From Acidobacteriota bacterium (lineage in GTDB: Bacteria; Acidobacteriota; Terriglobia; Terriglobales; Acidobacteriaceae), in the NCBI GenBank assembly GCA_023265315.1, contig JAHFUA010000003.1:38670-79255 (forward strand): DNA of 40,586 nucleotides, read 5' to 3'. Below, piece after piece: positions 10,223 through 23,802 of this stretch. Positions within the stretch are counted from its first letter, which is position 1; each line of letters opens with the position of its first letter. Both the position numbers and the translations under genes were made by a program. The notes under the pieces are model-generated. The model was not told where the DNA came from, searched no databases, and saw only the letters and a program-made list of their open reading frames with translations.

Positions 10223-11644
<1,422 letters not shown>

Positions 11645-19465: not shown

Positions 19466-19557
19466 ATGAGTACGGCCTATTCTCGCACATCGGCGCGGCC
19501 GCGTTGACATGGAATCAACCTCGGCTGCCACACCCGCATTCGGCTGCTTGAAGCATG

Positions 19558-19563
19558 TACACT
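19558..19563 (+). promoter_or_regulatory. Candidate -10 hexamer for selB
   Basis: TACACT ends 8 nt before the selB ATG at 19572, the same near-leaderless spacing as selA and moeA. No convincing -35 was found at 16-18 nt. Confidence 0.35.
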
Positions 19564-19571
19564 GTCGCTCG

Positions 19572-21464
19572 ATGAAATCCGTCATCGTCGGCACCGCCGG
19601 ACACATCGACCACGGCAAAACCGCGCTGGTTAAAGCGCTGACCGGTATCGACGCCGACCGCCTGGCGGAGGAAAAGCGCCGCGGCATCACCATCGATATC
19701 GGCTTCGCCCACCTCCAGCTTGCTGGGCCCGACGGCGAGCCCTTGCGACTGGGCTTCGTGGACGTTCCCGGTCACGAGCGCTTCGTGCGCAACATGCTGG
19801 CCGGCGTGGGCGGCATCGACCTGGTGCTGCTGGTGATCGCCGCCGATGAATCCATCAAGCCGCAAACCCGCGAGCACTTCGAGATCTGCCGCCTGCTCAA
19901 CATTCCCCGTGGCATCACCGTGCTCACCAAGGCCGACCTGGTAGACCGCGAGACCCTGGACGTGGTGCGCCTGGAAGTCGAAGACTTTCTGCGCGGGTCT
20001 TTCCTGGATACAGGCCAGGCGCCCATTGTTCCGGTCAGCTCGCTCACCGGCGCCGGCATCGCCGACCTCAAACGCGAGCTGGCGCGCGTAGCCGCCGAGG
20101 TACCCGCAAAGAGCGCCGCTTCCGTCTTCCGCCTGCCCATCGACCGCGTCTTCACCATGAAGGGCTTCGGCACGGTGATCACCGGGACGCTGATCTCCGG
20201 CGCCGTGCGCAAGGAAGAAGAAGTGGAGGTGTTTCCGCTTGGCCGGCGGGCCCGCGTGCGCGGCGTGCAGGTACATAATCGTCCCGCCGAGCAGGCCGCC
20301 GCCGGCGAGCGCACCGCGCTCAACCTCGCCGGCTTTTCTCCTGATGACCTGGTGCGCGGAATGACTCTGGCTGCCCCCGGGCTCTTCCGCTCCACCAGCC
20401 GGCTCGACGTCTCGCTGGCGCTGCTGGCCGGAGTGCGTCCGCTCAAAGACCGCGCCCGCGTGCACTTTCACGCGTACACGTTCGAGACCGTCGCCGAGAT
20501 GGTGTTATACGAGGGCAAGGAAGTGAAGCCCGGTCAAAGCGCGCTGGCGCAACTGCGATTGCAGGAGTCCACGCTGCTTTTTCCCGGCGACCGCTTCATC
20601 CTGCGGCAATTCTCCCCGGTGGTGACCATCGGCGGCGGGGTGGTGCTGGAGAATCAGCCGCAGCGGCTGCCCAAGACCGCATACCGGACGTGGTTAACAA
20701 CTCTGGCCGATGGCTCACGCGCCTCGGCGCTTCACGCCCGCGTCGTCGCGCGCGCGGAGAGAGGGCTCACGCTCTCCGACGCTATCGCTCGGACCGGCTG
20801 GCAGCGTGCGGAAATCGAATCGCTGCTGGCGGCGATGCCCGACGTCGGGCGCGCTGGGCCAACCTGGGTCCACGACGCCGCTTTGAACCGGCTGCGGGCA
20901 GGTACCCACACCGCGCTCGACAACTTTCACACCCAGAACCCGCTCTCGCCCGGGATGAGCCGCGAGGAACTCAGGAAGCGCTTTCCCGAAGTGCTGCCGG
21001 AGGTCTTCGAACACGTGCTGTCGCAGCTTGTGCAGGAGAAGAAACTCGAACTCTCGGGCGAGCTGGCGCGCCTGGCCGGGCGCGGCGTGGTCATGAAAGA
21101 CGAGGAGGCGGAGGCCAAAAAAACCATCGAGAGCGCCTTCTCCACCGCCGGTCTGAAAGTTCCTTACCTGAAAGATGTGCTTGCCGGCCTGCCCGTGGAC
21201 AAAGCACGCGCGCAGAAGATCGTCACGCTGCTGCTGCGCGATAAGGTGCTGATCAAAGTCTCCGACGAGCTGGTGTTCCATCGCCAGGCGCTGGACGGCC
21301 TGCGCAAGCTGGTGGCCGAGCAGAAAAAGAAGACGCCGAAGATCGACGTCGGCGCCTTCAAAGACATGATCGGCGTAACCCGCAAATACGCTATCCCGCT
21401 GCTCGAGTACCTGGACCGCGAACGCGTCACCCGCCGCGTGGGCGACCAGAGAGAAATCCTTTAG
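19572..21464 (+). CDS. selB: Selenocysteine-specific translation elongation factor
   Basis: A 630-aa GTPase that delivers Sec-tRNA to UGA codons marked by a SECIS hairpin. The G domain shows GHIDHGKT (10-17), [10 protein letters not shown] (38-46), DVPGH (64-68) and TKAD (119-122). These are followed by EF-Tu-like domains II and III ([20 protein letters not shown]) and the long C-terminal winged-helix region (about 350-630) that binds the SECIS loop, ending [20 protein letters not shown]. The ATG at 19572 gives the canonical N terminus. A probable selenoprotein gene lies immediately downstream in the convergent direction. RF1 in this window does not compete for UGA; RF2 would. Confidence 0.98.
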
Positions 21465-21681: not shown

Positions 21682-21714
21682 CTCTTCCTCCGTGTCTCCG
21701 TGTCTCCTTGGTTA
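21682..21714. repeat. Quasi-repeat array (word CCGTGTCTC)
   Basis: Words CTCCGTGTCTCCGTGTCTCC lead straight into the stop codon of the AhpD-like gene. The same word family occurs as inverted pairs at 23740-23802 and 34401-34457, and singly at 35124-35155. Confidence 0.6.
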
Positions 21715-22245
21715 GATATTCTCCCCCGCGAACTCCGGCTCGACCTCGAGCCCAAGCCCGTCGGTGACGCGGTTGGTGAAGTTCACCAGCGCCACTTCCG
21801 CCACCAGGTCCACCATCTCGGCATCCGAAAAGTACTGCTTCAAGGCGTCGGCTTCGGCTCCGGCTGAAGCGGTCGGGCCGCGCGTCATTTTGTCCGCATA
21901 ACGGAGGGCAGCTTTTTCTTGGTCGGTGAAATTGGAAGGCTCGGGATTCTTGAGCGCCTGCCAATCCTCCGCGGTCAGCCCGGCTCGCTTCGACGAAGCG
22001 AGATGGTGCTTCAGTCAATACTGGCATCCGTTGATGTAGGCCACGCGGATGTAGATCATCTCGTACAGCCGCCGCCCCAGAGACTGGCCGATGCTGCCAT
22101 AGAAGGGCACGAACGTTTCCAGCAGCTTGGGCCGCTGGGCCAGCGCCTTATGGATGTTGCCGGGCTTGCCCTTGAACACCTTCTCGTAGATCTCTTTGAC
22201 CTCGGGCGGGGTGTTCTGCGGTTCGATGTAGGAAACTCTCGCCAT
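21712..22245 (-). CDS. AhpD-like selenoprotein (carboxymuconolactone decarboxylase fold), Sec77
   Basis: A 177-aa protein if the TGA at 22015-22017 is read as selenocysteine. Before it lies EMIYIRVAYINGCQY, and after it LKHHLASSKRAGLT continues in frame to the TAA at 21712-21714. AhpD enzymes use Glu, Cys-x-x-Cys and His. Here Glu62, Cys74, Sec77 and His81 keep the spacing of mycobacterial AhpD exactly (-12, 0, +3, +7 from the first Cys). The C-terminal half (YADKMTRGP, DAEMVDLVAEVALVNFTNRV) is typical of the family, so the downstream frame is under selection. A strong GGAGGTGAAGG precedes the ATG. The likely role is thiol-linked peroxide reduction or reductant relay. A standard caller would stop at residue 76. 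Confidence 0.88.
21984..22002 (-). promoter_or_regulatory. Bacterial SECIS hairpin in the ahpD-like mRNA
   Basis: In the mRNA, the 8-bp perfect stem CUCGCUUC/GAAGCGAG encloses the loop GUC. The stem begins 12 nt after the UGA and the loop G lies 20 nt after it, within the 16-37 nt window known for bacterial SECIS elements. The loop starts with G followed by U, the features SelB recognises in the E. coli formate dehydrogenase element. Confidence 0.75.
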
Positions 22246-22269
22246 CCTTCACCTCCATATGCGCCACGT

Positions 22270-22327: not shown

Positions 22328-22359
22328 GGCTGAGTGCTGAATGCTGACCGCTGAGTGCT
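22328..22359. repeat. Quasi-repeat array (word GCTGAGTGCTGA)
   Basis: Degenerate 7-8 nt words GGCTGAGTGCTGAATGCTGA and CCGCTGAGTGCT end one base before the trmFO ATG at 22361, so no Shine-Dalgarno sequence is present. A partial inverse GTCAGCA lies at 22294-22300. Confidence 0.6.
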
Positions 22360-22360
22360 C

Positions 22361-23734
22361 ATGCCAAACATCAAAGTCATCGGCGCCGGCCTTGCGGGCA
22401 CGGAAGCCGCCTGGCAGCTCGCCCGTCGCGGGCTCGATGTAGATCTCTACGAGATGCGTCCCGTGCGCTCCACGCCCGCGCACCAGACTGGACAGATGGC
22501 CGAACTGGTCTGCTCAAATTCGCTCAAGTCCGACACTGAACACACCGCGCCCTGGCTGCTGAAGGAAGAGTTGCGCCGCGCCGGATCGCTCTTGATTGCC
22601 ATCGCCCGCGAAGCTGCCGTTCCTGCCGGCCACGCCCTGGCCGTGGACCGCGAACTGTTCGCTGCCAAGGTCACCAGCGCCATCTCGGGCGAGCCGCGCA
22701 TACGCGTGCACCGCGAGGAAGTGACCTGGGTGGACGAGCACGACGGCATCACCATCCTCGCCACCGGCCCGCTCACCTCCGACGCGCTTTCGCGCGAGAT
22801 CGCGCGCCTCAGCGGCAACGGGGTCCCCAGCACGCCCGGTGTTGGCGTGCTGGGGCAGAGCCAGCACCTCTACTTCTACGATTCCATCAGCCCCATCGTC
22901 GAAGCCGAGTCCATCGACATGACGCGCGTCTACCTGGCTGCGCGCTACGACAAGGGCACCGCCGACTACATCAATTGTCCATTCACGCGCGAGGAGTACG
23001 GCCGCTTTTATGACGCGCTGGTCGCGGCCGAGTCGGTCGAGGCGAGCGACTGGGAGAACCTTAATTATTTCGAAGCTTGCCTGCCCATCGAGGAACTGGC
23101 TCGTCGCGGCCGCGACACTCTGCGCTTTGGTCCCATGAAGCCGGTAGGCCTGCGCGATCCGCGCACCGGCAAGCAGCCCCACGCCGTGGTACAACTGCGC
23201 CGGGAAAACCTGCGCGCCGACTCCTACAACATCGTCGGATTCCAAAACCATTTGAAGTACGGCGAGCAGCAGCGCGTCTTCCGCTTGATCCCTGGACTAG
23301 AGAAGGCTCGCTTCCTGCGCTACGGCCAGATTCACCGCAACACCTACATCAACGCGCCCTCGCTGCTGGCCGCGACGCTGCAGATGAAGGCGCACCCGAA
23401 CGTTCTGTTCGCCGGCCAGATCTGCGGGGTTGAAGGCTACACGGAATCAATCGCCGCCGGACTAATGGCCGGCGTTCATGCCGCGGCGCTGGCCAGCGGC
23501 GCTGAACCTGTGCCGCCGCCGCGTGCGTCCGCCTTCGGGTCGCTGGTTTGCTACATCACAAATGCCGACCCGGAAAACTTTCAGCCGGCCAACATCACCT
23601 TCGACCTGCTACCGCCGCTCGACGAGCGCGTGCGGGACCGCGCCCAGCGGCATCGGTTGCAATGCGAGCGCGCGTTGGAGGAGTTCGACGGGTGGCTCGC
23701 CGGCAGCAGCGCACAGCAATCCGTCAGCCGATGA
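22361..23734 (+). CDS. trmFO: Methylenetetrahydrofolate--tRNA-(uracil-54-C5)-methyltransferase
   Basis: A 457-aa FAD enzyme that makes ribothymidine at position 54 of tRNA with methylenetetrahydrofolate as carbon donor. The N terminus is the dinucleotide-binding motif KVIGAGLAGTEAAW (GAGLAG at 8-13), followed by the family-specific YEMRPVRSTPAHQTG and CSNSLKSD. Near the C terminus are FAGQICGVEGYTES and AAGLMAG. The length fits the family. ATG 22361 is chosen; a GTG two codons earlier is also open. Its start abuts one quasi-repeat array and its stop is followed by another. Confidence 0.97.
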   Translation: MPNIKVIGAGLAGTEAAWQLARRGLDVDLYEMRPVRSTPAHQTGQMAELVCSNSLKSDTEHTAPWLLKEELRRAGSLLIAIAREAAVPAGHALAVDRELFAAKVTSAISGEPRIRVHREEVTWVDEHDGITILATGPLTSDALSREIARLSGNGVPSTPGVGVLGQSQHLYFYDSISPIVEAESIDMTRVYLAARYDKGTADYINCPFTREEYGRFYDALVAAESVEASDWENLNYFEACLPIEELARRGRDTLRFGPMKPVGLRDPRTGKQPHAVVQLRRENLRADSYNIVGFQNHLKYGEQQRVFRLIPGLEKARFLRYGQIHRNTYINAPSLLAATLQMKAHPNVLFAGQICGVEGYTESIAAGLMAGVHAAALASGAEPVPPPRASAFGSLVCYITNADPENFQPANITFDLLPPLDERVRDRAQRHRLQCERALEEFDGWLAGSSAQQSVSR

Positions 23735-23739
23735 AATCC

Positions 23740-23802
23740 ACCACCGAGGCACGGAGACACGGAGGAATTCGAACTTCTCCGTGCCTCCGTGTCTCCGTGG
23801 TA
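23740..23802. repeat. Inverted quasi-repeat array (CCACCGAGGCACGGAGACA)
   Basis: The left arm CACCGAGGCACGGAGACACG is answered by the right arm TCCGTGCCTCCGTGTCTCCG across a short GAATTCGAA spacer. It fills the convergent gap between trmFO and der and could fold into a long hairpin that ends both transcripts, although no T run follows. Confidence 0.75.

Follow-up and report, generated by a model that had tools for sequence, protein, structure and literature searches.

An AhpD-like gene interrupted by an in-frame TGA

The window, by which we mean the whole analysed stretch of 40,586 nucleotides, derives from the genome of a soil-type member of the Acidobacteriota and encodes on its minus strand an AhpD-like (CMD-domain) protein, with selB as the adjacent gene and selA also within the window (Table 1). 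The gene starts with an ATG at 22245, preceded by a ribosome-binding motif graded as good, and ends with a TAA at 21714-21712; the frame comprises 177 sense codons with a single internal TGA as codon 77. Mechanical ORF calling returned only a 76-aa piece, the outcome that had been foreseen for ordinary gene callers. The match to the Pfam CMD profile (PF02627, cut-off 23) rose from 23.5 bits for the 76-aa fragment to 61.6 bits for the read-through product, where it covered residues 39-118 and thus ran across the TGA. When compared to the nearest orthologue, third-position changes predominated both 5' and 3' of the TGA, and the plus-strand translation of the same interval, inspected by eye, contained nothing AhpD-like.

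An earlier note on this DNA had placed the TGA exactly at the second Cys of a C-x-x-C motif, with the frame staying open and family-like beyond it, a GUC-loop hairpin following at SECIS distance and selB as the next gene. All four observations were borne out, with the qualification that selB and the ahpD-like gene are convergent (tail to tail) and do not form one operon.

Table 1 Selenocysteine-related genes and sequence elements in the window
Feature	Position	Strand	Details
selA, L-seryl-tRNA(Sec) selenium transferase	10223..11644	+	TIGR00474, 565.5 bits
selB, Sec-specific elongation factor	19509..21464	+	TIGR00475, 378.5 bits (cut-off 242.25); SelB winged-helix domains
Gene for AhpD-like (CMD-domain) protein, predicted selenoprotein	21712..22245	-	177 aa, counting the UGA codon as Sec
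Bacterial SECIS-like hairpin, CUCGCUUC-GUC-GAAGCGAG	21984..22002	-	8 bp, 3-nt loop with leading G
In-frame TGA, codon 77	22015..22017	-	Second Cys position of C-x-x-C (C74-Q-Y-U77; CQYU)
Shine-Dalgarno-like GGAGGTG	22250..22256	-	4 nt 5' of the ATG

Family placement and predicted structure

The read-through protein scored above threshold for the AhpD core domain (TIGR00778, 37.1 bits, cut-off 27.8), and the nearest named subfamily was TIGR01926 (peroxidase-related), of which it is not a formal member, with 74.0 bits against a cut-off of 81.8. No match to the classical AhpD model TIGR00777 was found in the profile search. Two further models that include Sec and Cys variants, NF053654 (YciW-related (seleno)protein) and NF041238 (AhpD_rel_CFYUT (seleno)protein), were homologous over most of the length, but with 63.1 bits (cut-off 310) and 43.8 bits (cut-off 175), respectively, the protein belongs to neither.

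An AlphaFold model built with an alignment of 40 homologues was of high confidence and all helical (pLDDT 93, pTM 0.88), and E62, C74, Y76, column 77 and H81 were invariant in these 40 sequences. The best matches among solved folds (3c1l, 2pfx, 6k40 and 2prr; TM up to 0.86) are single-domain 'peroxidase-related' AhpD-like proteins annotated as putative antioxidant or peroxidase proteins. PA0269 from Pseudomonas aeruginosa (2O4D, 2IJC, 7XW1) shares the helical core and ~30% identity with the window protein, and its relay of Glu36, Cys48, Tyr50, Cys51 and His55 has the same order and spacing as E62-C74-Y76-U77-H81 (PMC3141380); it differs in being shorter (145 aa) and in having Cys where the window protein would have Sec. 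PA0269 has H2O2 peroxidase activity in the FOX assay, and a Tyr replacing His in this enzyme is thought to lower its peroxidase activity (PMC3141380).

The earlier note had likened the catalytic spacing to that of the mycobacterial AhpD. The spacing of the catalytic Glu, Cys, Cys and His in Mycobacterium tuberculosis AhpD (1KNC, 1GU9) is indeed that of E62, C74, U77 and H81, but the two proteins are not closely related: the fold match was weak (TM ~0.5, E ~0.3-1) and they fall into separate subfamilies. In addition, His132 of the M. tuberculosis enzyme corresponds to a Tyr in the window protein.

Column 77 among close orthologues

A set of 47 distinct orthologues, including the window protein and sharing 46-70% identity with it, was assembled from one collection scan and 200 genomes of the same family. 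The codon aligned with codon 77 was TGA in 16 and TGC or TGT in 31 of them, and no orthologue had any other codon; a relative with neither Cys nor Sec in this column was thus absent from the whole set. The recurrence of the TGA in 15 further distinct orthologues rules out a sequencing error. The preceding Tyr codon (codon 76, window 22018-22020) was TAT in all 16 Sec forms compared to 10 of the 31 Cys forms, which is perhaps a context effect of the UGA, or else a matter of kinship. One of the TGA orthologues, L048 (G013:C153), had an extra TAA in the matched region and lacked the usual start codon, and its 5' end may be decayed or misassembled.

A phylogenetic tree of 55 rows required a minimum of four switches between the Sec and Cys forms, two of which were forced by well-supported branches. 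Since the Sec forms branch early among the orthologues and Sec is frequent in the remoter clades, replacement of Sec by Cys accompanied by decay of the hairpin appears to be the simplest reading of this tree, which was rooted at its midpoint only.

A SECIS-like hairpin that follows the TGA

The hairpin starts 12 nt 3' of the UGA, with a distance of 20 nt from UGA to loop, and has a predicted energy of -10.3 kcal/mol. Bacterial SECIS elements have been described as having a loop of 3-9 nt with a G within the first two positions, a stem of 4-16 bp, a UGA-to-loop distance of 16-37 nt and an MFE of at most -7.5 (PMC13188914), and the window hairpin fits every one of these terms for loop, stem, distance and MFE. 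Taken singly, it is nonetheless weak to modest evidence: single-sequence folding gave a z of only -1.5 and 19 of 200 shuffled sequences did equally well, and of synonymous recodings ~2% reached at least seven of eight pairs at the site and 5% satisfied the general model. The decisive evidence is the comparison of orthologues, where at least seven of the eight pairs were retained in 16/16 TGA genes and in 0/31 Cys genes (Fisher 6.7e-13, for related sequences and uncorrected for kinship). The TGA orthologues all had a 7-8-bp stem and a 3-nt loop with a leading G located 20 nt past the TGA. At the codon level, the stem codons GCT, TCG, (TCG) and AAG were fixed in the TGA genes, whereas synonyms varied in the Cys genes.

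Searches with Rfam models around the ahpD-like gene gave no match at the gathering threshold. RF00031 (SECIS_1) was also silent in 14 control genomes, making its lack of a match here uninformative.

Remoter clades with TGA

A second TGA clade of the same family (L072-L077, from G152, G183, G105, G133, G020 and G049), at ~33% identity, carries the motif CEYU and a hairpin of different sequence, CCGTCTT-GGC-AAGACGG, in which the distance from the TGA, the loop length and the leading G are the same as in the window. The Cys-encoding relatives L070 and L071 do not have this hairpin. Across 22 TGA sequences, both partners were replaced in five of the eight stem pairs, and the hairpin had a covariation score of 0.454 compared to 0.234 for shuffled data (0/500) and at most 0.18 when the partner strand was slid.

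Outside the family, AhpD-like matches with exactly one in-frame TGA were common across several families in 200 genomes of the class, and four of the single-TGA matches across the class were inspected for a hairpin and for where the TGA lies. TCGCTTC-G(G/U)C-GAAGCGA occupies the place of the hairpin in L086, L087, L088 and L090, TGA genes that belong to other families within the class, and is missing from L085 and L089, which are Cys genes from such families. L089 also contains a TAG, which is irrelevant to column 77, read as TGC in that gene. The class probably holds a large, under-annotated set of AhpD-like TGA genes.

Selenocysteine machinery of the host genome

All four genes for the synthesis and insertion of Sec (selA, selB, selC and selD) are present in the genome. 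The selA profile match covers window positions 10250-11620 (G000:C114:48919-50289), and a tRNA-Sec with a UCA anticodon was found at G000:C120 (Rfam 70.8 bits, also identified by ARAGORN). selD (L010) lies outside the window on the minus strand at G000:C181:5117-6061, and its own frame contains a single TGA, located in the N-terminal catalytic region at the usual place for SelD (EAVKAAGUASKLSP); SelD is thus likely a second selenoprotein of this genome. A selA match of at least 480 bits was found in 16/16 sampled genomes with a TGA copy of the ahpD-like gene, while G055 and G040, which have the Cys form, had no real selA match.

Predicted decoding and function

With a column restricted to TGA and Cys, a hairpin linked to the TGA, and selA, selB, tRNA-Sec and selD all present, UGA codon 77 is very probably decoded as Sec. 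SelB and the tRNA-Sec would do so under the direction of the downstream hairpin, and the resulting Cys74-Gln-Tyr-Sec77 centre would lie within the two-helix motif that characterises AhpD-like peroxidases, where Glu62, Tyr76 and His81 would complete a proton relay. In AhpD, the second Cys of the CxxC motif attacks and the first resolves. By analogy, Sec77 would most likely be the selenolate attacking a hydroperoxide or another oxidised substrate, Cys74 would resolve it as a selenenyl-sulfide, and a cellular thiol system would then re-reduce the centre. The protein is likely a thiol/selenol peroxidase or disulfide reductase that works through the E62-C74-Y76-U77-H81 relay. The gene, the position of the TGA, the SECIS conservation, the decoding machinery and the motif were all read from sequence, from which we infer Sec insertion in the cell and peroxidase activity, the latter being on record for Cys relatives only (PMC3141380).

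As for the physiological reaction, we lean somewhat towards hydroperoxide reduction. It is, however, quite conceivable that the selenoprotein catalyzes another reaction, acting as a thiol-disulfide oxidoreductase, as the reductant of AhpC or as a reductive dehalogenase: other redox chemistry occurs in some members of the family, the debrominase Bmp8 is among the fold matches, an adaptor function alongside AhpC has also been ascribed to AhpD (PMC3141380), and the name of the nearest NCBI subfamily goes no further than 'peroxidase-related'. Retention of the complete five-residue relay of the peroxidase-assayed PA0269 speaks against this, as does the putative antioxidant or peroxidase nature of the best fold matches.

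Near-cognate read-through, with Cys, Ser or Trp rather than Sec inserted at the UGA, would be in keeping with the 31 of 47 orthologues that function with Cys at this position, but it would leave a hairpin kept in the TGA genes only, a full Sec machinery and a SelD with its TGA at a known Sec site in the same genome unaccounted for, and we regard it as very improbable. A true stop, reflecting a pseudogene or a sequencing error in an AhpD-like gene, agrees with the mechanical ORF ending at the TGA and with the window being a contig of a draft genome, yet is in practice refuted, and given next to no credence here, by a TGA that recurs in the other orthologues and in remoter clades, a conserved frame 3' of it with mainly third-position changes on both sides, and a SECIS-like hairpin that tracks TGA and not Cys.

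Relation to known AhpD-like selenoproteins

The kind of protein predicted here is already known, since AhpD-like CxxU selenoproteins have been reported since 2005, when 27 sequences were described from the Sargasso Sea (PMC1088965). Two AhpD-like types, with 299 and 70 sequences, followed from the GOS survey (PMC2398784), and members were also found in sequenced bacteria (PMC1794560). A review from 2026 lists the AhpD-like class as 'predicted with high confidence' and not as 'experimentally verified' (PMC13188914). The Sargasso Sea and GOS proteins (COG2128/YciW, TIGR01926; 'AhpD-like 1/2', 'CMD domain-containing') share with the window protein the CMD/AhpD domain, the CxxU motif, the existence of Cys homologues and a bacterial SECIS element just past the UGA (PMC1088965, PMC2398784, PMC13188914). 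The branch represented by the window gene differs in belonging to the Acidobacteriota (Terriglobia), in being syntenic with selB and in scoring below the TIGR01926 cut-off.

Our literature search found no paper on AhpD selenoproteins in Acidobacteria or naming the Terriglobia branch, and of three papers joining Acidobacteria, selenoproteins and SECIS none concerned the protein described here, as judged by title. The new part is a well-supported Acidobacteriota branch, its SECIS strongly backed by the comparison of orthologues, whose member in the window is not reached by the curated seleno-aware NCBI models. Standard gene calling would shorten this conserved enzyme to 76 aa in many Acidobacteriota. 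Furthermore, the Sec form and the Cys form share a single syntenic location and the hairpin accompanies Sec only, which amounts to a clean natural experiment on the contribution of Sec, and a matched Sec/Cys pair would be a good test case for the predicted AhpD-like class (PMC13188914).

Genomic neighbourhood

On its other side, the ahpD-like gene is flanked by a diverging gene at 22355-23734, which we take to be trmFO from its resemblance to Gid/TrmFO sequences, and the gene beyond selB is presumably purL, likewise judged by resemblance. The order purL - selB - ahpD-like - trmFO was found in most Sec and Cys orthologues with long enough contigs. As trmFO and purL keep the same order, plain conservation of gene order suffices to explain the adjacency of selB, which taken alone does not tie the protein to selenium metabolism; a functional link between selB and the ahpD-like gene was considered and set aside. 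It is unlikely that the adjacency, shared by Sec and Cys forms, reflects a role in selenium handling or in redox protection of the Sec machinery rather than a general peroxidase function.

The 651-aa selB ORF and the 849-aa purL ORF (minus strand, ending at 19693) overlap at their 5' ends (19509-19693). Homology begins past both mechanical ORF starts, at about residue 21-24 in SelB and mostly at about residue 77-86 in the purL product, so the true starts of both genes are probably further in. An intergenic repeat of the CTCCGTGTCTCCGTGTCTCC-type was observed at 21685-21712, 23740-23767 and 23777-23801; the copies are located directly 3' of the TAA that closes the ahpD-like gene and close to where trmFO ends, and occur in both direct and inverted orientation.
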